From NCBI GenBank assembly GCA_030604885.1, contig JAUVUZ010000008.1, forward strand, positions 1 through 64,000: a stretch of DNA of 64,000 nucleotides, in the 5' to 3' direction. The first letter of the stretch is position 1, and every line of letters starts with the position of its first letter. Below, in pieces: positions 358 to 18,434 of this stretch. The stretch comes from Alphaproteobacteria bacterium. Lineage in GTDB: Bacteria; Pseudomonadota; Alphaproteobacteria; Rhodospirillales; Rhodospirillaceae. The translations under genes and the position numbers were made by a program. The notes below the pieces were generated by a model. That model was not told the origin of the DNA, made no database searches, and worked only from the letters and a program-made list of their open reading frames with translations.

Positions 358-2286
358 GTGGGGGACGATGGCTCGGGTGCGGCTTCGTGCCGCGTGTATC
401 CGTTTTCGGCGATTTTGGCGCAAGAGGAGATGAAGCTCGCGCTGTTGCTGAACGCGGTGAACCCGTCGGTGGGCGGGGTGGTGGTGCGCGGGCAGAAGGG
501 GACGGCCAAATCCACCGCGGCGCGGGGGGTGCGGGCGCTCTTGCCGCGCGACGATGCCGGGCGGGTTCCGGCGTTCGTGGATTTTCCCCTCGGCGCGACC
601 GAGGACATGGTGGTCGGCTCGATCGACTTCGAGGCGGCGGTGCGCGACGGCGAGGTGCGGTTTCAGCCCGGGCTGCTGGCGCGCGCGCACCGGGGCGTGC
701 TCTACATCGACGAGGTCAACCTGCTGGACGACCATCTGGTCGACAGCATTCTCGACGCCGCCGAGACCGGCGCCAACGTGGTGGAGCGCGAGGGCCAGAG
801 CCTGCGCCACGCGGCGCGCTTCATCCTGATCGGCACGATGAACCCGGAGGAGGGGGAGCTGCGGCCACAGCTGCTCGACCGCTTCGGCCTCGCGGTGGCG
901 ATCGCGGGCGAGGCGGACCCGGCGCTGAGGGTCGAACTGCTGAAGCGCCGCGAGGCGTTCGACGCCGACCCGGAGGGCTTCCTCGCCGCCCACGCCGCCG
1001 CCGAGGCCGATCTCGCGCGCCGGGTCGGCGAGGCGCGGGCGCGCCTGCCCGAGGTGATGATCGCCAGTCATCTGGTCGGCTTCATCGTCGAGATCTGCGC
1101 CCGCAACCGCGTCGCCGGGCACCGCGCCGACATCGTCATCGCGCGCGCCGCCGCCGCGCTGGCGGCGTGGGAGGGGCGGAGCGACGTCTCGGCCGACGAC
1201 ATCCTCAAGGTCGCGCCGCTGGCGCTGCTGCACCGCATGCGCTCGGGTACCCCGGACATGCCGCCGCCGCCTCCTCCTCGTCCGCCGGAACCGGAGGAGG
1301 ACGCGGAAACTCCCGACGCGCCGCCGCCCGAAGGCGAGGCGGCGGGCGAGGAGGCTCCCGCGCCGCCACAGCAGCGCCGGGACGATGCCGCCGAGCGCCC
1401 CGAACCGTCCGACGACGATCCGCCCGAGGAAATTCAGGAGGTCGGCGCGCCGTTCGCGGTGCGCAGGATCGAACGGCGGAGCGTGGATCGGGAGTTGCGC
1501 ACCGGCTCCGGCCGCCGCTCGCGGTCGCGCTCGGCGAGCAAACAGGGGCGTTACGTCAAAAGCACCACCCGGCGCGGCCGCAACGACCTTGCCCTCGACG
1601 CGACGATCCGCGCCGCCGCGCCCTATCAGATCGTCCGTCGTGCCGCCGCCGCGCACGATCTCGCGGTGCACATCGCCGAGGGCGACATCCGCGAGAAGGT
1701 GCGCGAGCGTCGGGTGGGGAACTTCCTGCTGTTCGTGGTGGACGGCTCCGGCTCGATGGGGGCGCAGCGGCGCATGGTCGAGACCAAGGCGGCGATCCTG
1801 AGCCTGCTGCTCGACGCCTATCAGAAGCGCGACACCGTGGCGATGGTGAGCTTCCGCCATCGCGGCGCGGCGGTGGTGCTGCCGCCTACCCATTCGGTGG
1901 ATCGCGCCGCCCGGCTGTTGGCGGATCTCCCCATCGGCGGCCGCACGCCGCTGACCGCCGGGCTGGGCGCGGCCGCCAACGTGCTGCGCCGGGCGCTGCG
2001 GAAAGATCCGGCGCTGCTGCCGCTGGTGATCGTGATGACCGACGGCCGCGCCAACGCCGGAATCGGCGCCGCGCCACCCCACGAGGAGGCGTTGAAGGCC
2101 GCCGCCGCGCTCGCCGAGCGCTATCCGAGCGCGCAGTTCGTCGTCGTCGACACCGAGGCTCCGGGCGCGGTGCGCCTCGGCCTCGCGCGCAAACTCGCCG
2201 CCGCGCTGGGCGCGGCGTACGTCAAGGTCGCCGATCTTCGCGCCGAGGATCTGGTGGCCATAGCCAAGGAGCATCAAGGGTGGTGA
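358..2286 (+). CDS. Magnesium/cobalt chelatase D-type subunit (AAA+ ATPase, Pro/acidic linker, VWA domain)
   Basis: Walker [10 protein letters not shown], ChlI-like motifs [11 protein letters not shown] and [19 protein letters not shown]-terminal MIDAS DGSGSMG. Confidence 0.85.
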
Positions 2287-3299
2287 GCATCGACACCGCG
2301 TCCCCGGCCGTCTATCCGTTCGTCGCCATCGTCGGGCAGGAGACGCTGAAGCAGAGCCTGATCCTCAACGTCGTCAACCCCGGCCTCTCGGGGGTGCTGA
2401 TCCGCGGCGAGAAGGGCACCGCCAAATCCACCGCGGTGCGCGCGCTCGCCGACCTGCTGCCGGAGATCGCGGTGGTCGAGGGCGACCCCTTTCAGAGCGA
2501 TCCGGCCGACCCGCGCGGCATGGCGCCCGAGGTGCGCGCCCGCTTCGCGGCGGGCGAGGCGCTGCCGGTGCGGCGGCGCAAGGTGCGGGTGGTCGAACTG
2601 CCGATTTCCGCCACCGAGGATCGCGTCGTCGGTACCCTCGATCTCGAAACCGCGCTCAAGGAGGGCCGCAAAACCATCGAGCCGGGCCTGCTCGCCGCCG
2701 CCAACCGGGGCTTGCTGTACGTCGACGAGGTCAACTTGCTGGACGACCACGTGGTCGACGTGCTGCTGGATTCCGCCGCGATGGGGGTGAACACCATCGA
2801 GCGCGAGGGGATCAGCTTCTCGCATCCGGCGCGCTTCACCCTGATCGGCACGATGAACCCGGAGGAGGGCGACCTGCGGCCGCAGCTCCTCGACCGCTTC
2901 GGCCTGTGCGTGCAGGTGGAGGGGCTGACCACCCCGGCGGAGCGGGTCGAGGTGGTGAAGCGCCGCGCCGCCTACGAGGACGACCCGGACGCCTTCGCCG
3001 CGCGCTGGGCGGAGGAGACGGCGCAACTCCGCGACAAGGTGGCGGCGGCGATCGCGCTGTGCCCGCAGGTGACGGCGTCCGACGCGATCCTGTTCGCGAT
3101 CGCCGAACGCGCGCTCAAGCTCGGGGTGGACGGTCACCGCAGCGACATCGTCATGCTCAAGGCCGCCAAGGCCCTCGCCGCCTGGGGCGGGCGCGAGGAG
3201 GTGACGCCCGCCGACGTCGAGCGCGCCGCGGCCCTCGCCCTGCCGCACCGCATGCGGCGCAAGCCGTTCGAGGAGATCCTCGGCCCCCACGCGGCCTGA
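2283..3299 (+). CDS. Magnesium/cobalt chelatase I-type AAA+ ATPase subunit
   Basis: [58 protein letters not shown] start overlaps the upstream stop. Confidence 0.85.
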
Positions 3300-4251: not shown

Positions 4252-5315
4252 TCGGGGCGCTGCGCAGCCGCATGGCCGCCGCCGAGGGCGGCGAGGCCCG
4301 GGCCTACGCGCTGCTGGCGGCGGCGCTGCTGGCGGCCCTCGGCGTCAACTTGTCCGCCGGGGCGCTGCACGTGCCGCTGGAGGCGATGCTGCGGGTGTTC
4401 GCCGCCGCGCTCGGCCTCGCCGAGCCGCGCGCGGCGGACCGGATTTTCGAGGTGGTGCTGCTGGACGTTCGCCTGCCGCGCCTCGCCATGGCGTGCGTGG
4501 TGGGCGCCACCCTCGGGGTTTCCGGCGCGGCGATGCAGGGGGTGCTGCGCAACCCGCTGGCCGAGCCGGGCCTGCTCGGCACCACCAGCGGCGCGGCCCT
4601 CGGCGCGGTGGCGGCGATCGTGCTGGAAGGCTGGCTGACGCGACGGCACGATTTCGCCCACCTGCTGGTGCCCGGCGCGGCGTTCGGCGGCGCCCTGGCG
4701 GCCACCCTGGTGGTGGTGGCGGTGGCGCGCGCCGTGGCTCTGCCGAGCGCGGCGACGCTGCTGCTCACCGGCATCGCCATCAACGCCCTGTCCGGCTCCG
4801 CCATCGGCCTGCTGATCTCCATCGCCAACGACGAACAGCTGCGCAACCTCACCTTCTGGATGATGGGCAGCCTCGCCAACGCCAACCGCGCCCATACCCT
4901 GGTGGTGGCGCTGGCGGGCGGGCTGGGGGCGTTCGCGGTCTATCGCCACGCCCTGGCCCTGGACGCCGCCACCCTCGGCGACGACGTGGCGGGGCACCTC
5001 GGCCTCGATCCGGTGGCGGTGCGCGGCCGGGTTCTGGCGGCGGTGGCGCTGGCGGTGGGGGCGAGCGTGGCGTTCGTCGGCATGGTCGGCTTCGTCGGCC
5101 TGGTGGCGCCGCATCTGGTGCGGCTGATGCTGGGGGCGCGGCACCGGCTGGTGATCCCCGCGGCGGCGCTGCTGGGGGCGACCCTGGTGCTGCTGGCGGA
5201 TCTCGCGGCGCGCACCGCGGTCGCCCCGGCGGAACTGCCGCTCGGGGTGCTCACCGGGTTGATCGGCGGGCCGTTCCTGCTGTGGCTGCTGATGCGCGGG
5301 GGGATGGACAAATGA
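4248..5315 (+). CDS. hmuU: FecCD-family ABC permease (heme type)
   Basis: GAAMQGVLRNPLAEPGLLGTTSGAALGA, FVGMVGFVGLVAPHLVRLMLG. Confidence 0.85.
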   Translation: MIGALRSRMAAAEGGEARAYALLAAALLAALGVNLSAGALHVPLEAMLRVFAAALGLAEPRAADRIFEVVLLDVRLPRLAMACVVGATLGVSGAAMQGVLRNPLAEPGLLGTTSGAALGAVAAIVLEGWLTRRHDFAHLLVPGAAFGGALAATLVVVAVARAVALPSAATLLLTGIAINALSGSAIGLLISIANDEQLRNLTFWMMGSLANANRAHTLVVALAGGLGAFAVYRHALALDAATLGDDVAGHLGLDPVAVRGRVLAAVALAVGASVAFVGMVGFVGLVAPHLVRLMLGARHRLVIPAAALLGATLVLLADLAARTAVAPAELPLGVLTGLIGGPFLLWLLMRGGMDK

Positions 5316-8288: not shown

Positions 8289-8321
8289 TTGACGGGGTGG
8301 ATGTGTGATGTTATTACATCC
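8289..8321 (+). promoter_or_regulatory. Candidate promoter with palindrome upstream of riboswitch 1
   Basis: TTGACG-N17-TATTAC; inverted repeat GATGT-TATT-ACATC (8307-8320) over the -10. Confidence 0.45.
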
Positions 8322-8322
8322 G

Positions 8323-8504
8323 CGCACGACGGTCCCCGCCTTGGGGCGGGGCCATGAGGGAACCCGGTGGAAATCCGGGGCTGCCCCCGCAACTGTCAGC
8401 GAGGAGTTGCCGCCCACAGTCGCCACTGACGCCCCGGACGACCGGGGAGCCGGGAAGGCGGGCGGCCGCGACGATCCGCGAGCCAGGAGACCTGCCGTCG
8501 TGCG
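8323..8504 (+). ncRNA. Cobalamin riboswitch 1
   Basis: P1 CGCACGACGG/CCGTCGTGCG; GGAAATCCGGGGCTGCCCCCGCAACTGT; GCCACTGA; CCGGGAAGGCGGGC; B12 box GCGAGCCAGGAGACCTGCC (8478-8496). Confidence 0.92.
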
Positions 8505-8712
8505 CGTACCCACCCAAGGGGCGGGGAGGCCCCACGGGAACGGGACATCGGCGGCGACGCCGGGGTCCGCAGTCGGTCGCTCCATTGGGGGAGAGGGCCG
8601 GTTCGCGGCGGCGGTCGCGGGTTGCGTTGGGGGATGGGGCAGTGATGTTATGTAACGCTAGAACATACCTGACTCGATTGCCGATGGCACATCAGCCCTG
8701 CATGGAGTGGGA

Positions 8713-10785
8713 ATGACTATGGATCAGCAGGAACTCGGACTCGCGGCGGATTTCCCCGCAGTCAGCTACGATCAATGGAAAAAGATCGTCGAGGACAAAG
8801 AACTGAAGGGCGTGCCCTTCGAGAAGAAGATGGTGACCAAGACCCCGGAAGGGATCGACATCCGGCCCCTCTACGTCGCCGAGAACTGGCCGTGGGCCGG
8901 GGATCCCTCGGGCTTTCCCGGGTTCTTCCCCTATACCCGCGGCACCCAGGCGATCGCCCGCACCCGCAAGGGCTGGGATATCCGCCAGGAATTCCGCGAA
9001 GCCGACCCGGCCGACGCCAACCGCGAGATCAAGCACGACCTCGGGCGCGGCGTGACCTCGGTGGCGCTTCGCCTCGACGAAGCGGTCCGCGCCGGTTTCG
9101 GTCCCGATGCGCCGGGCGCGGGCGCGAACGGTGCGCTGATTCACGATCTCGCCGCCCTCGAAACCGCGCTCGCGGGGGTCGATCTCGCCAAGGTTCCGGT
9201 GGCGCTGGAAGCGGGCGCGGCGTTCCTGCCCGCCGCGATGGCGCTCTCCGCGCTGTGGAAGAAGGCGGGGTTGACGGCGGAGACCGCCACCGGCGGCTTC
9301 GGCGCCGATCCGGTCGCCACTCTTGCCGAGACCGGCGGCCTGCCGATGTCGGCGGACGCGGCGCTGGCGCAACTGGGGGCGCTCGCCGCCTTCACCGTCA
9401 AGACTTGGCCGAAGGTGCGCGCGGTTTCGGTGGATACCTCGGTCTACCACAACGGCGGCGCGAACGAGGCCCACGACCTCGGCATCGCCCTCGCCACCGC
9501 GCTCGCCTACGTCAAGGCGATGGAACATGCCGGTCTCGGCATCGACCAGGCCTGCGGGCAAATCGCCTTCACCGTCTCGGTGGGTTGCGAGGAATATCTC
9601 CAGATCGCCAAGCTGCGCGCCGCGCGCAAGCTGTGGGCGGCGCTCGCCAAGGTGTGCGGCGCTTCCGACGCGGCCGCGTGCATGAGCCTGCGCGCCAAGT
9701 CGGCGGAGCGGATGTTCACGCGCATCGACCCGTGGGTGAACATGCTGCGCGCCACCGTCTCGACCTTCGCTTCGGCGGTCGGCGGGGCGGATGCCGTCAC
9801 CTGCCTGCCCTTCGACGTCGCGATCGGCCTGCCCGACGACATGGGGCGCCGCATCGCCCGCAACACCCAGATCATCCTGGCGGAGGAATCGAACCTCTAC
9901 CGCGTCGCCGATCCGGCGGGCGGCGCGTGGTCGATGGAAACCCTCACCGACGAGATGGCCGAAAAGGGCTGGGCGTTCTTCCGCGAGATCGAGGCCAAGG
10001 GCGGCATCGTCGCCGCGCTCGGCTCCGGCTTCGTCCAGGACGCGATCGCCGCGACCATGGCGCAGCGCGACAAGGATATCGCCAAGCGCAAGGTTCCGCT
10101 CACCGGCGTTTCCGAATTCCCGAACATCCTCGAGAAGCCGGTGGTGCGTCCGGTGGCGGACGTGGCCAAGGCCAAGGCCGAGGCGGTCAAGCGGATCGCC
10201 GCCGCCAAGGCTCCGGCCGCGAGCGGCAATCCGGTGGCCGATGCGGCCCACGCCGTCGGCGCGGGCGTCGGCTTCGCGGCGGCGCTGGCGAAGGCGGCGG
10301 GGCCGGCGGTGAAGCCGGTGGTCAAGCGTCACCTCGCCGACACCTTCGAGCGGCTGCGCGACGCGGCCTTGGCGCACAAGGAGACCACCGGCGCGTTCCC
10401 GACGATCTTCCTCGCCAATCTCGGGCCGATCGCCAAGCACACCGGCCGCGCCACCTTCGCCAAGAACTACTTCGAGGCGGGCGGCATCCAGGCGCTCGGC
10501 AACAACGGCTTCGAAACCGTCGAGGCGTGCGTCGCCGCATTCGAGCAAAGCGGTGCGCGGATCGCGGTGATCTGCTCGTCGGACGCGCTCTACGAGGAAA
10601 TGGTGCCGACCTACGCGCCCGCCCTCAAGGCCGCCGGGGCCGAGACCCTCTACCTTGCCGGTGCGCCCGGCGACAAGAAGGACGCCTACGACGCCGTGGG
10701 CATCGACGACTACATTTTCATGGGTGCGGACGTTCTGGGCAAGTTGACCGCCCAGTTGGTTCGCCTGGGAGTGATCGCGCAATGA
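8713..10785 (+). CDS. Methylmalonyl-CoA mutase, small (non-catalytic) subunit
   Basis: [48 protein letters not shown]; directly followed by the large subunit. Confidence 0.88.
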
Positions 10786-12992
10786 TTCCGAATTTCGCCA
10801 ACGTCGATCTCAAGTCGATCAAGAGCAGCGCCGCCTATACCGACTGGGAAGCCCGGGTGCGTGCGGAAACCGCCAAGGGCGTCGATGCGGTGCTGTGGGA
10901 AACCCCGGAGAAGATCGGCGTCAAGCCGCTCTATTCGGCGGCCGATCTCGACGGCATGGATCACCTTCACACCATGCCCGGCCTGCCGCCCTACAAGCGC
11001 GGCCCGTATACCACGATGTACGTGAACAAGCCGTGGACGGTGCGCCAGTACGCGGGCTTCTCGACCGCCGAGGAGTCGAACGCGTTCTACCGCCGCAACC
11101 TCGCGGCGGGTCAGAAGGGCCTGTCGATCGCCTTCGACCTCGCCACCCATCGCGGCTATGACTCCGACCATCCGCGCGTCGTCGGCGACGTCGGCATGGC
11201 GGGCGTGGCGGTGGATTCGATCCTCGACATGGAGGTGCTGTTCTCCGGCATTCCGCTCGACCAGATGTCGGTGTCGATGACGATGAACGGCGCGGTGCTG
11301 CCGGTGCTCGCGCTCTATATCCTCGCCGCCGAGGAGCAGGGCGTCTCCCGCGACAAGCTCGCCGGAACGATTCAGAACGACATTCTGAAGGAGTTCATGG
11401 TCCGCAACACCTACATCTATCCGCCGACCCCGTCGATGCGGATCATCTCCGACATCTTCGAGTACACCTCGAAGTATATGCCGAAGTACAACTCGATCTC
11501 GATCTCCGGCTATCACATGCAGGAAGCCGGAGCGACCGCCGATATCGAAGTCGCCTACACCCTCGCCGACGGCAAGGAATACATCCGCGCCGGCATCGAG
11601 GCGGGCCTGACGGTGGACGATTTCGCGCCGCGCCTGTCGTTCTTCTGGGCGATCGGCATGAACTTCTTCATGGAAGTGGCGAAGATGCGCGCCGCCCGCC
11701 TGCTGTGGGCGCGGATCGTCAAGGGTTTCGATCCCAAGAACCCGAAATCGATGTCGCTGCGCACCCACTCGCAGACGTCGGGCTGGTCGCTCACCGCGCA
11801 GGACGTGTTCAACAACGTGGTGCGCACCCAGATCGAGGCGATGGGCGCGGCCCAGGGCCACACCCAGTCGCTCCACACCAACGCGCTCGACGAAGCGCTG
11901 GCGCTGCCGACCGATTTCTCGGCCCGCATCGCCCGGAACACTCAGCTGTTCATCCAGCAGGAAACCGGCATCTGCAACATCATCGATCCCTGGGCCGGTT
12001 CGTATTACGTCGAATCCCTCACCGACCAGTTGGCGCGGCGCGCCTGGGCGCATATCGAGGAGGTCGAGGCCTCCGGCGGCATGGCCAAGGCGATCGAGGC
12101 GGGGATTCCGAAGATGCGCATCGAGGAGGCGGCCGCCCGCACCCAGGCGCGCATCGACGCGGGTCGCCAGACCGTCGTCGGCGTCAACAAGTTCAAGCTC
12201 GACGGCGAGGAATCCGTCGACGTGCTGAAGGTGGAAAACACCGAGGTGCGCAAGAAGCAGATCGAGAAGCTCGAACGGCTGCGCGCCAATCGCGACCAGT
12301 CGCGGGTGGACGCCTGCCTCGCCCGCATCACCGAGGCGGCGGGGGCCAAGCGTGGCGAAGCCGCCTACGGCAATCTTCTGGAACTGGCGGTCGAGGCGGT
12401 GCGTGCCCGCGCTTCGCTCGGCGAGATTTCCGACGCCTGCGAGAAGGTGTTCGGTCGCCACAAGGCGGTGATCCGCGCGATTTCGGGCGTCTACACCGCC
12501 GAAGTCGGAAAGGACTCGCCGCAGATGAAAACCGTCGCCAAGCTGATCGAACGCTTCGAGGCCAAGGAAGGCCGTCGTCCGCGCATCTTCCTCGCGAAGA
12601 TGGGCCAGGACGGCCACGATCGCGGCCAGAAGGTGATCGCCACCGGCTTCGCCGACATGGGCTTCGACGTCGATATCGGCTCGCTGTTCCAGACCCCGGA
12701 GGAAGCCGCTCGCCAGGCGGTGGAAAACGACGCCCACGTCGTCGGCGTCTCGTCGCTCGCGGCCGGGCATCTCACCCTGGTTCCGGCGCTGCGCGACGAA
12801 CTCAAGAAGATGGGCCGCGAGGACATCATGATTATCGTCGGCGGCGTGATTCCGCCGCAGGACTTCCAGGCGCTCTACGATTTCGGCGCGGCGGCGATCT
12901 TCCCGCCCGGCACGGTGATCTCGGAATCCGCCAAGGAAGTGCTGGAGAAGCTGATGGTCCACCTCGGCTTCGACACCGGGGCGGTCGCGTGA
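10782..12992 (+). CDS. Methylmalonyl-CoA mutase, large (B12-binding) subunit
   Basis: [55 protein letters not shown]-terminal B12-binding motif [27 protein letters not shown]. Confidence 0.96.
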
Positions 12993-14065
12993 TGACGGCG
13001 CTTTCGGTCGATACCGGCAAAGTGTCGGTCACGCCGCCCAACGCAGGCAAGGAGGCGCGCGTCAAGCGCGCCTCCCTCAGCCTCGAAGACTACGTGAACG
13101 GCATCCTCTCCCGCGACCGCGCCCGCCTCGCGCGGGCGATCTCGCTGGTGGAGAGCAGCAACCCGGACCATCAGAAGCTCGCTCAGGAGCTGCTGGTGCA
13201 ATTGGCGCCGCATGCGGGCAAGGCGCACCGCATCGGCATTACCGGCGTGCCCGGGGTGGGGAAGTCCACCTTCATCGAATGCTTCGGCAATCTCCTCACC
13301 GCCAAGGGGCACCGCGTCGGCGTGCTGGCGGTGGACCCCAGCTCCAGCCGCTCCGGCGGCTCGATCCTCGGCGACAAGACCCGCATGGAGACCCTCGCCA
13401 ACAATCCCGACGCCTACATTCGCCCCTCGCCCTCCTCGGGGCGGCTGGGCGGCGTCACCCGCACCACGCGCGAGACGATGCTGGTGATGGAGGCGGCGGG
13501 CTACGACGTGATCCTGGTGGAGACGGTGGGCGCGGGGCAGAACGAGACCGTGGTCGCCGACATGACCGATTTCTTCCTGGTGCTGATGCTGCCCGGCGCG
13601 GGCGACGAGCTTCAAGGGATCAAGAAGGGCGTGCTCGAACTCGCCGACATGATCGCGGTCAACAAATGCGAGGACGACAACGCGCAAAAGGCCGAGGCGG
13701 CGCGTCAGCACTATGCCAACGCGTTGCACATCATGACCCCGACCTCGCCCAACTGGCGGCCGCCGGTGCTGAAGATCTCCGGTCTCAAAGGCATCGGCCT
13801 CGAAGAGCTGTGGGAGAATATCGAGGAACACCAGCGCATTCTCGCCGAAACCGGCGAGCTGGACGAGGCGCGCCGCCGCCAGCGCATCAAGTGGATGTGG
13901 AGCATGATCGAGGACAAGCTGATGGATGCGGTGAAGAGCCATCCGGAGGTGCGCGCCGAACTGCCCGCGATCCGCGCCGATGTGGAGGCGGGGGCGATGA
14001 CGGTGCCGCTGGCGGTGCTCAAGGTTTTGCGCGCCTTCGGTCTCGAAGTGGGGTTGGGGGGCTGA
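12992..14065 (+). CDS. meaB: Methylmalonyl-CoA mutase-associated GTPase MeaB/ArgK
   Basis: RIGITGVPGVGKSTFIECFG, VDPSSSRSGGSILGDKTRM, VETVGAGQNETVVADMTDFFLVLMLPGAGDELQGIKKG. Confidence 0.93.
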   Translation: MTALSVDTGKVSVTPPNAGKEARVKRASLSLEDYVNGILSRDRARLARAISLVESSNPDHQKLAQELLVQLAPHAGKAHRIGITGVPGVGKSTFIECFGNLLTAKGHRVGVLAVDPSSSRSGGSILGDKTRMETLANNPDAYIRPSPSSGRLGGVTRTTRETMLVMEAAGYDVILVETVGAGQNETVVADMTDFFLVLMLPGAGDELQGIKKGVLELADMIAVNKCEDDNAQKAEAARQHYANALHIMTPTSPNWRPPVLKISGLKGIGLEELWENIEEHQRILAETGELDEARRRQRIKWMWSMIEDKLMDAVKSHPEVRAELPAIRADVEAGAMTVPLAVLKVLRAFGLEVGLGG

Positions 14066-14071
14066 AACCCC

Positions 14072-14100
14072 TTGACCTCTGGTATGTGATAGTGTAACAA
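14072..14100 (+). promoter_or_regulatory. Candidate promoter upstream of riboswitch 2
   Basis: TTGACC-N17-TAACAA, with TGTGATAGTGTAAC across spacer and -10. Confidence 0.4.
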
Positions 14101-14110
14101 ATATTCTTGT

Positions 14111-14288
14111 CGATGCGACGGTTCCCCCGGACCACCGGGGGTGAAAAGGGAAGCCGGTTCAATTCCGGCGCTGTCCCCGCAACTGTGAGCGGCGAGCCCA
14201 GTCCGAATGCCACTGGCCGAATGGCCGGGAAGGCGGACCCCGGGTCCAGACCCGCGAGCCAGGAGACCTGCCGCCGCACGCGTCACGA
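14111..14288 (+). ncRNA. Cobalamin riboswitch 2
   Basis: AAGCCGGTTCAATTCCGGCGCTGTCCCCGCAACTGTGAGCGG; GCCACTGG; CCGGGAAGGCGGA; B12 box GCGAGCCAGGAGACCTGCC (14254-14272). Confidence 0.94.
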
Positions 14289-14643
14289 CCGCAGGCCGGG
14301 GGCTGTGTGCGGTGCGGATTTCCGCTTGTGACGCAAGGTTTTGTGTCATGGGTCGGAGTCCGTTGCGATGCGAGAGTTTCCGGGATTTTCCCTGCATGTT
14401 TTGGCCCGCTGGTCGGGCGATCGCGGATTCGTGCCGCCGTTCTGGGGAGCGCGCGCGTTCCCCGAGGATTTGCCGTTCGCCGCCGGGTGCGCCCACACCG
14501 CGCCCGGCGAGCGCGAGACTCCGGCGGCACAGACGGGACCGTGACCTGCAACTTTGGAGCAGGCGATAACGGCCCGCCCGCTCCCCCCTGTTGAAGGTCG
14601 CGTTTGACCGACCCCGCACCGAGCAGCGGGTCGGCAGACTTGC

Positions 14644-14676
14644 GGCGGCGGCCTCTCCCGGCTGCCGCCGCCTTTT
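14644..14676 (+). terminator. GC-rich hairpin plus T4, candidate expression platform of riboswitch 2
   Basis: GGCGGCGGC-...-GCCGCCGCC-TTTT, ending about 10 nt before the cobN Shine-Dalgarno GGAGG. Confidence 0.5.
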
Positions 14677-14696
14677 CGTATGCGTGGAGGTTGGAA

Positions 14697-17600
14697 TTGT
14701 CTTCGAGCGACGCAACGGTGCTGGTGGTGGACGCCACCGGCTCGCATCTCGCCCAGTTCGCCGCCGCGGCGGCACGGCTGCCCGAGGGGGTGCGGGTGGC
14801 GGCCCGCAGCCGCGACGACCTCGCCGGCCCGGGCGCCCTCGACGCCTGCGTGGCGCTGGCGGCGGAGGCCGCGGCGCTGATTCTGCTGCCGATGGGCGGC
14901 AGCGCGTCGATTCCCGGGCGCGACCGTCTGGTGGCGGCGCTGGCGGGGCGGCCGGTGCACGTTCACGCCGGTCTCTCCTCCGCCGACGAACAGGGGTTCG
15001 CCCAGGCCGTGTGCGCCGATTTCGGCAGTCCCGCGTATCTGCGGCGGCAGGCGTACCTGCGGCGCGGCGGCGCCGACAACCTGGCGGCGCTGATGCAGCA
15101 GTTGCTGCGTGACGGCGGGCGCGACCTCCCCGCGCCGCCGCCGCCCGCCGAGCGCCCCACCGAGGGGATTCATCACCCGGCGTGGACCGGCGGTCACGAC
15201 ACCGACGCCTATCTCGCCTGGGCGCGGGCGCGCCTCGGCGCCGACGCGCCGGTGCTCGGCCTGTGGTTCCACCACAACGCCTGGGCCAACGCCGATCTCG
15301 CGCCCTACGATGCGCTGATCGCGGAAATCGAGGCCCAGGGCGGCATTCCCCTGCCGGTGTTCCATGTGCGCTTCCCCGATGCGGACCTCGGCAACCTCAC
15401 CGGGGCGGCGCTGGTGGAGCGGTTCTTCAAGCGCCGCGGCCGGGCGGTGATCGACGCGCTGCTGTCGCCGATGAGCTTCTCCCTGGCGCGCGCCGGGATG
15501 GATGCGGAGGCGATGTTCGCAGCCCTCGACGTGCCGGTGCTGCAACTGGTGGTCGCCTCCTCCTCCGCCGCCGCGTGGGAGGCCTCGGCGCAGGGGTTGT
15601 CGCCGGTCGACGTGTCGATGCAGGTGGCGCAGCCGGAGTTCGACGGCGCGATCCTCGGCGGCGTCGTCGCCACCCGCGAACTCGGCGCGCCGGATGCCGC
15701 CACCGGCGCCCGCGCGGTGCGGCGCGAGCCGGTGGAGGAGCGGGTGCGCGGCCTCGTCGCCTGGGCGATGAACTGGGTGCGCCTGCGCCGCACGCCGCCT
15801 GCCGCGCGCAAGGTGGCGATCCTGTTCCACCACTATCCGCCGAAGAATCACCGCCTCGGCTGCGCCTTCGGCCTCGACAGCTTCGCCAGCGTGGTGGCGA
15901 TGCTGGAGCGCTTGAAGGCGGAGGGCTATTCCGTCGCCCGCGATTACGCCGACGGCGACGCCCTGGCCTTCGACCTCCTGTCCCGCCTCACCAACGACCG
16001 CCGCTTCCTGCCGCCCGCCGAGATGGCGCGCCGCGCCGCCGCCCGCGTGCCGGGGGAACGGGTGGCCCGCTGGGCGGACGCGCTGCCCGAGGCGCCGCGC
16101 GCCGAAATGGCGCGGGCGTGGGGGCCGCCGCCGGGGGTCGCCTTCTGCCACGGCGGCGAGGCGCTGATCGGCGGCGTCGTCAACGGCAACGTCTTCATCG
16201 GCATGCAGCCGTCGCGGGTGCGCGAGGCGGGCGAGGGCGAGGCCCTCGACCTGCCCGACGGCGGCCTGATCCACGATCCGCATCTGCCGCCCACCCATCA
16301 CTACCTCGCCTATTACCGCTGGCTGCGGGAGGACTTCGGCGCCCACGCGGTGGTCCACGTCGGCATGCACGGCACCCTCGAATGGCTGCCGGGCAAGGCG
16401 GTGGGCCTGTCCGGCGCGTGCTATCCCGAGGCGATCCTGGCGGACCTTCCCAACCTCTACCCCTACATCGTCGACAACCCGGGCGAGGGCACCCAGGCGA
16501 AGCGCCGCGCCCGCGCGCTGATCCTCGACCACATGATCCCGGCGCAGATGGGCGCCGGACTCGCCGAGCCGGTCCAGGAGATCGCCGACCTGATCGAGCG
16601 GGCGGGCCTGGCGGCGCAGGAGGACCCGGCCAAGGTGGCGATGCTGGCGGCGGAGATCCGCGCCCGCGCCGCCGCCGCGCACCTCGACGTGCCCGAGGGC
16701 GACGACGCGGCGGTGCTGGAGGCGCTCCACGATCGGATCACCGAACTCGCCACCACCGCGGTGGCCGACGGCCTGCACGTGTTCGGCAGCCCGCCCCAGG
16801 GCGCGCGCTTCAACCGCACCCTCGCCCAGTTCGCGCGTCTGCCCAACGGCGGCACGCCCTCGCTGTGGGAGGCGATCGCCGCCGCCAACCGCGTCGGCGA
16901 GGCGGAGGCGCTGGCGCAGGCCGAGGCGGCGTTCGCCGAGCTGGACGCGCGCGGCTGGGATGCGGCGACGGTGGCGGCGGTGACGGCGGAGCGGTTCGGC
17001 GGCTCCGCGCGGGTGCGCGCGGCGCTCGCCTTCGTCGCCGAGGTGGCGCGGCCCAAGCTGGTTCAGACCACCGACGAGCTGGAGTCTTTCGCCCGGGGCC
17101 TCGCCGGGCGCTACGTGCCGCCGGGCGGCTCCGGCGCGCCGACCCGCGGCAGCCTCGACGCCCTGCCCACCGGGCGCAACTTCTACTCCGTCGACCCGGC
17201 GCGGATTCCGACGCGGGAGGCGTGGACCGTGGGGGTGGCGCAGGGCGACGCCCTGGTGGCCCGCTACCGCGCCGACCACGGTCGCTATCCCGAACAGGTG
17301 GGGATGGTGCTGTGGGCCGGGCCGACGATGCGCACCCGCGGCGACGACGTCGCGGAAATCCTCTACCTGATCGGCGTGCGGCCGGTGTGGGAGGCGGGGT
17401 CCGGCCGGATTCTCGGGGTCGAGCCGATCCCGCTGGCGGAGCGCGCGTTCCCCCGCCTCGACGTGACGGTGCGGGCGAGCGGCCTGCTGCGCGACGCCTT
17501 CCCCAACCTGATGGGGCTGATCGACGCCGCGACGCGGATGGTGGCGGCCCTCGACGAGCCGCCCGAGGTCAACCCGCTCGCCCGCAACGTGGCGGTGGAC

Positions 17601-18434
17601 GCGGCCGAGCTGGTGCGGGCGGGCGTGCCGCCCGAGGAGGCGGCGCGGCGCGCGCGCTTCCGGGTGTTTTCCGACCGCCCCGGCACCTATGGCGCGGGCG
17701 TCAACCACCTGCTCGAAAGCGGCGAGTGGCGCACCGTGGACGACATCGCCGCGGTCTAGGTCGGCTGGGGCGGCTACGCCTACGGCGAGGGCGTCCACGG
17801 CGCGGCGGGCCACGAGGATTTCCGCCGCCGCCTCGGGCGTCTCGACCTGACCCTCAAGACCCAGGACAGCCGCGAGCACGACATCCTCTCGGGCGACGAC
17901 CCCAACGCCTACCAGGGCGGCATGAACGCGGCGGTGCGCGCCTTCTCCGGCCGCGCGGCGGCGAGCTACGCCGGGGATTCCAGCGACCCACGCAAGCCCA
18001 AGGTGCGCACCACCGCCGAGGAGGCGCGCTTCGTGTTCCACGCCCGGGTGCTGAACCCGCGCTGGATCGAGGGCATGCGCCGCCACGGCTTCAAGGGCGC
18101 GGGGGACATGGCGCGGCAGGTGGAACTCGCCTGCCAGTGGGACGCCACCAGCGGCATCCTCGAGGACTGGCAGTATGAGGAAATCGCCAAGACCTACGCC
18201 TTCGACCCGGAGATGCAGGCGTTCTTCAAGGCGCACAACCCCTATGCGCTCCACGATATCGCCGAACGTCTGATGGAGGCGATTTCCCGAGGTCTGTGGG
18301 AGAGCCCCGGCGCGGCCTATGCCGACTTGGAAGCGCTTTTGCTCGACGCCGAGGGCGATATCGAAGATGCCGTCATGGGAGATGGGGAGTCGGAAAACGA
18401 GGGAAAATGCGAATCCGCATCGCAGTTCGGGTGA
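14697..18434 (+). pseudogene. cobN: Cobaltochelatase CobN-type subunit, frame interrupted by in-frame TAG at 17757-17759
   Basis: CobN motifs HVGMHGTLEWLPGKAVGLSGACYPEAILADLPNLYPYIVDNPGEGTQAKRRAR, then after TAG in the same frame VGWGGYAYGEGVHG...KTQDSREHDILSGDDPNAYQGGMNAAVRAFSG. TTG start with GGAGG Shine-Dalgarno. Confidence 0.8.

Follow-up and report, generated by a model that had tools for sequence, protein, structure and literature searches.

A cobalamin riboswitch upstream of a B12-dependent methylmalonyl-CoA mutase in a bacterial genus with two mutases

Why should an enzyme that depends on B12 be placed behind a riboswitch that senses B12? Cobalamin riboswitch regulons have been filed as synthesis, B12 transport, cobalt uptake, or isozymes of B12-dependent enzymes, and the locus studied here, a riboswitch (RS1) followed by mutA, mutB, and meaB, targets neither synthesis nor transport nor a B12-independent isozyme (categories of PMC3766115). 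Since riboswitches near both cobamide-dependent and cobamide-independent reactions are mentioned in a study of the skin microbiome (PMC9600381), a riboswitch at a B12-dependent enzyme is not without precedent, and our literature search, which took in few of the classical riboswitch papers, returned no description of a cobalamin riboswitch directly on mutA. The case is that of a conserved B12 riboswitch on a B12-dependent enzyme, found, among 98 relatives, in just the genus that has two full mutases. It offers a simple system in which to ask what the switch is for, with cofactor economy, cobamide choice, and an ON switch each making a distinct reporter prediction.

The window, a stretch of 64,000 nucleotides, lies on contig C32 of a 60-contig genome (G000) that counts Alphaproteobacteria SZUA-351 and a Telmatospirillum MAG (the latter of the family Rhodospirillaceae) among its relatives. 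Its gene order is chlD-type, chlI-type, btuF, btuC, btuD, btuB, RS1, mutA, mutB, meaB, RS2 (a second cobalamin riboswitch), and cobN, where the btu and chlI names were given by similarity and position.

The riboswitch, its promoter, and the genes that follow

RS1 matches Rfam family RF00174 at 8313-8513 on the forward strand over the full length of the model (1-189), with 124.3 bits and E 9.2e-31 in an Rfam cmscan search against a gathering score of 31.5 bits. Its B12 box (GCGAGCCAGGAGACCTGCC, 8478-8496) is exact, and its L5 loop UGCCCCC (8382-8388), located by Rfam alignment and compared among 36 aptamers, is complementary to the loop GGGGAG (L13, 8523-8528) of a hairpin, P13, that is predicted to fold directly after the aptamer (8509-8544). 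Judged by these matches, RS1 is a full class-I cobalamin riboswitch with AdoCbl as its putative ligand. A first-pass annotation of the same DNA had placed an AdoCbl aptamer at 8323-8504, which is RS1 itself, trimmed a little at both ends.

That annotation had also given the aptamer its own promoter, and a relaxed pattern match identifies one, P1, at 8289-8316 on the forward strand (TTGACG-N16-TTATTA), which would put the transcription start near 8323. The relaxed pattern, TTG[AT]CN-N16/17-TTAT[CT]N, has a single occurrence in the window when both strands are counted (128 kb), and a stricter sigma-70 scan gave no match. All six leaders compared carry P1 (TTGAC or TTGTC, 16-17 nt, TTAT) at -346 to -460 from the ATG; because it is kept in the two leaders without an intact aptamer (G005 and L030), P1 probably serves mutA.

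Between the aptamer and the mutA ATG lies a gap of 205 nt that holds no gene. The earlier reading of mutA as directly downstream is borne out, while its ATG at 8713 and gap of 209 nt are superseded, since 8719 is the only ATG kept in all relatives and therefore the best start. No reading frame between RS1 and mutA is conserved across the four species with the riboswitch, so a missed ORF was rejected there; two ORFs overlapping the aptamer (8305-8655 and 8354-8716) are not kept in relatives. The conserved ribosome-binding region CAGCCCTGCATGGAGTGGGA (8693-8712, forward strand) before the start codon is kept in five species, riboswitch or not, and partly in L030. A stretch within early mutA codons that looked complementary to another aptamer loop (GGAAAU) was dropped because these codons encode conserved residues and also occur in riboswitch-less L030.

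The three genes of the operon all lie on the forward strand. TIGR00642 is still the best family for the product of mutA (8719-10785), the mutase small subunit, and is matched over profile positions 3-619 of 620, but the score of 494 bits stays under the curated cut-off of 617 that marks the small subunit of a heterodimeric mutase; PF01642 scores 430 bits, and there is no B12-binding domain. The product of mutB (10782-12992) scores as a large subunit, with 1300.6 bits against an NF006944 cut-off of 876 and a B12-binding domain (PF02310, 63.5 bits). Its closest solved chains are 6oxc_A and 1req_A of the Propionibacterium-type heterodimeric mutase, both matched over the whole length, and the difference from that type lies in the low-scoring MutA. 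The third gene, meaB1 (12992-14065), encodes the mutase-associated GTPase (NF006958, 483 bits against a cut-off of 329).

Linkage in relatives and a second, riboswitch-free mutase

Whether riboswitch and mutase stay linked in relatives was a point raised by the first-pass annotation, and RS1 is indeed found before mutA in four of the five genus genomes with a readable mutA start (G000, G001 at L009, G003 at L010, and G007 at L012), where aptamer and ATG are 205-237 nt apart. Sequence identity among the four aptamers is 68-91% (they differ by up to 32%), and they form one clade (ultrafast bootstrap 98) in a tree of 41 genus aptamers, midpoint-rooted for drawing, where they sit with cobN-type and orphan aptamers, apart from the transporter ones. 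In the fifth genome, G005, the site holds a decayed copy, a relic of the linkage amid differing upstream genes: the leader, about 85-115 nt shorter than the riboswitch-bearing ones, gives no Rfam match up to E 10; even so, it can be aligned colinearly with RS1 over the 5' half, starting at the P1 -10 region and extending into the stretch that follows GCAACTGT of the aptamer, and with two of the four references this alignment outscores at least 299 of 300 shuffles. At L030, which has no aptamer, a relic of RS1 was rejected because the alignment covers just the P1 stretch (a score reached by 0 of 300 shuffles against G003).

Farther afield, we scanned upstream regions for the B12 box with up to four mismatches, a sequence box rather than a covariance model, which recovers every known riboswitch of the genus. 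For 51 other mutA genes from the family and order, the 900 bp upstream held none, in keeping with the earlier view that a riboswitch before mutA is unusual; at 29 class-level loci, there were just two hits, both with four mismatches and neither preceded by the GCAACTGT motif. The mutA tree leaves the branching order of G005, G007, and L030 open, and a simple reading, rather than a proof, would be one gain of the riboswitch followed by one or two losses. Several of the genomes compared are fragmented, and the breaks that seem to interrupt mutB in G003 are runs of N.

Away from this locus, all eight genus genomes carry a methylmalonyl-CoA mutase of the homodimer type, though only part of it in G003 and G004. 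The G000 copy is found on contig C54 (718 aa; NF006944, 1263 bits against the cut-off of 876), with no adjacent riboswitch among the riboswitch matches listed; a second MeaB follows about 1.5 kb downstream in G001 and opens contig C51 in G000. NF006944 is matched above its cut-off in 85 of the 98 relatives, yet two full mutases occur only in G000, G001, G005, and G007, all of this genus; G003 and G004 have two that include pieces, and G002, rated 100% complete, has the second mutase and no MutAB-type MutA match. Among relatives, mutA bears a riboswitch only where MutAB is not the sole mutase, and because only this genus has both two mutases and a mutA riboswitch, RS1 would control a redundant set and not the only mutase. 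This association is a correlation within one genus, possibly a single evolutionary event, with the cause unproven. To the first-pass annotation, repressing a B12-dependent enzyme with its own cofactor had seemed paradoxical; the target is unusual, but the riboswitch-free second mutase/MeaB pair in the same genome weakens the paradox.

The five genus members tested, G000 included, lack MetE, so that B12 is needed anyway in G000, and PrpB went undetected in G000, G001, and G005. Further mutase-like genes below the NF006944 cut-off were seen in G007 (C1:4463-6088) and G002 (C307:3446-5008), with an additional MeaB-type gene about 1.9 kb from them.

Expression platform, sign of the switch, and competing explanations

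P13 is kept in all four species, with 96.9% of cells paired and one pair changed on both sides, a modest covariation support from four sequences only. L5 reads UGUCCCC in G007, and where paralogous riboswitches of these genomes have L5 UGCCUCC (CCUCC), it is accompanied by a GGAG loop, so that L5 and L13 vary together. Because L13 fits L5 in RS1 and likewise in the paralogs, RS1 has, by complementarity, the usual kissing-loop architecture, which is that of the genome's transporter riboswitches. Beyond P13, the mutA leader has a platform unlike the transporter, orphan, and cobN ones of the genus. Leader fold and alignment give a second small, partly conserved hairpin on the forward strand (CGGCG-GCGA-CGCCG, 8549-8562); no mutA leader has an intrinsic terminator, and the C-over-G Rho-like bubble of the transporter leaders is absent from three of the four mutA leaders, which are G-rich. 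Occlusion of the mutA ribosome site by aptamer or P13 was rejected because the predicted folds are inconsistent across the four species. RS1 thus shows neither the P13-controlled terminator nor the occluded start of an OFF-type switch, and its output might still run through Rho or RNA decay.

The best explanation, to which we give an even chance, is that RS1 acts as an AdoCbl OFF-type switch on an auxiliary MutAB-MeaB1 set that is used when B12 is scarce. RS1 would lie in the 5' leader of a mutA-mutB-meaB mRNA transcribed from P1, presumably with read-through into mutA, and AdoCbl binding would, in the manner of ordinary repressing B12 riboswitches, stabilise both P13 and the L5-L13 kissing loop, with AdoCbl-bound RS1 lowering expression of the operon. 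Such repression would be tolerable because MutAB-MeaB1 is taken as the auxiliary set, the second homodimer-type mutase with its own MeaB being riboswitch-free throughout the genus and the two enzymes presumably redundant. When AdoCbl is scarce, MutAB-MeaB1 would be raised, and when it is plentiful, the cell would rely on the second mutase; more apo-mutase at low cofactor could work by mass action, by a higher cofactor affinity, or by another cobamide preference. The sign itself is read by analogy, because the mutA platform has no terminator, no Rho-like bubble in three of four leaders, and no consistent occlusion. Counting against an OFF switch are the lack of an output device in the mutA leader, a platform unlike the other types of the genus, the need for B12 in G000 that comes with the absence of MetE, and the dependence of both mutases on AdoCbl, so that the classic isozyme logic of making a B12-independent form under low B12 does not carry over as it stands.

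More tentatively, RS1 may apportion one B12-dependent reaction between two complete B12-dependent enzyme/chaperone sets. With the same reserve, MutAB-MeaB1 could be meant for low or different cobamide and the homodimeric mutase with MeaB2 for replete conditions. If true, this would be a switch between isozymes that both need the sensed cofactor.

Known systems resemble this arrangement in part. With the RF00174 class-I OFF type of btuB and cob operons, RS1 shares the P1 stem, B12 box, L5-L13 kissing loop, and a promoter directly upstream, and G000 itself has four others before transport genes or cobN and an orphan; RS1 differs in that its first downstream gene encodes a B12-dependent enzyme and in its leader of 205 nt without a terminator or evident occluded start site. 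Riboswitch-controlled isozymes such as metE and nrdAB/nrdDG likewise have one of two systems for the same reaction under a riboswitch, but the controlled partner there is B12-independent (PMC3848588, PMC3766115), whereas here both mutases are B12-dependent. In cobamide locus 3 of Bacteroides thetaiotaomicron (bt2090-2101), mutAB (BT_2090/2091) are part of a transport locus with B12 riboswitches (PMC8941943), a likeness in arrangement only, with no claim of homology.

Among the rival explanations, it is unlikely that mutAB are expressed mainly from a second promoter at about 8640-8670, with RS1 providing only an extra B12-repressed increment or nothing beyond a short leader RNA. The first-pass annotation had proposed a bypass promoter at 8640-8670, and an 11-nt element within it, TAGAACATACC (8659-8669, forward strand), is a possible -10 of such a promoter P2: it is conserved 60 nt before the ATG where the leader is otherwise poorly conserved, being identical at -60/-61 in G000 and G003, with one change in G001, and weaker in G005 and G007. 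The proposal is left weak by the promoter scan, which found no recognisable -35 upstream of the element, by the L030 leader, which lacks it, and by P1, which is what the two riboswitch-less leaders retain.

We regard it as distinctly unlikely that RS1 is an ON switch through which AdoCbl binding raises mutAB-meaB, so that apo-enzyme is made only with cofactor present; if true, this would be the larger surprise. It has the simplest physiological logic for a B12-dependent enzyme, every OFF device sought is missing from the mutA leader, which has a platform unlike that of the transporter riboswitches, and in Xylanibacter cobalamin increases MutAB, albeit with no riboswitch (PMC11575231). Both P13 and the L5-L13 kissing loop, however, are of the OFF-switch kind, and the predicted folds offer no conserved alternative pairing that would free the mutA start. 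Cobalamin riboswitches are termed OFF switches in a review (PMC11477304), and a literature search of the same reach as above returned no clear case of an activating one.

It is very unlikely that the two mutases prefer different cobamides and that RS1 would silence MutAB when the preferred cofactor of the second is given. Mutase orthologs do differ in cobamide selectivity and binding (PMC6759758), the selectivities of riboswitches and isozymes mostly agree for metE/metH in a single species (PMC9600662), and in G005 the tandem riboswitches downstream of meaB are followed by a CbiZ remodelling gene, but the argument draws on the cobamide binding of other mutases. Least probable of all is a non-functional remnant, for instance of a lost transporter gene as the first-pass annotation suggested: btuB lies just upstream in the window and a decayed RS1 copy does exist in G005, but aptamer, B12 box, and P13 are intact in four species despite their divergence, unlike in G005, and the linkage or its remnant stays where upstream genes differ (G007 and G005), so that the aptamer tree, with its single clade outside the transporter aptamers, the mutA linkage, and the contrast with G005 led us to reject a transporter-leader relic.

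Companion riboswitches and the cobN region

RS2 (14102-14289, forward strand; RF00174, 139.1 bits, E 5.2e-35) lies before cobN at the far end of the same operon, scores above RS1, and goes unmentioned in the first-pass annotation. The six cobalamin riboswitches of G000 are RS1, RS2, those at a second TonB receptor, a BtuF-like cluster, and a BtuC-like cluster, and one orphan, with the downstream genes of those outside the window named by inspection of predicted proteins. In the long leader between RS2 and cobN (14290-14700), an ATG at +78, a position shared with the orphan riboswitch, opens a 58-codon ORF from 14368 that is recognisably similar in G003, while in other species mostly just the first codons are. 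Within cobN, an in-frame TAG (17757-17759) has CobN-like frame on both sides (14718-17759 and on to 18434); a nonsense mutation, read-through, and a sequencing error are the candidates. The ChlD/ChlI-type AAA and VWA genes near cobN (window 394-3299) are probably the small subunits of a cobaltochelatase.

After meaB, tandem cobalamin riboswitches about 400-480 nt apart were seen in G005 (L011:13434-13628 and 14032-14229), with a CbiZ gene, a radical SAM gene, and cobN downstream, and in G004 (L013:3993-4189 and 4669-4872). The radical SAM gene downstream of RS2-type riboswitches (L011:15612-16610, before cobN in G005; L012:13836-14840, assigned by sequence resemblance only) encodes a distant relative of the peptide-maturase and NirJ families that passes none of the curated cut-offs shown.

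The orphan riboswitch of G000 (C46:27808-27998; L002:1501-1691, reverse strand) has no long same-strand gene after it and faces the 3' end of a glutamine-amidotransferase-like gene in G000, G002, G005, G006, and G007. Its aptamer and about 100 nt of near-identical platform are found in all eight genus genomes (also L015, L018, L021, L024, L028, L116, and L118), with a conserved ATG at +78 to +81 that opens a short ORF of 28-57 codons, and a small RNA or small ORF is a candidate for what it controls.
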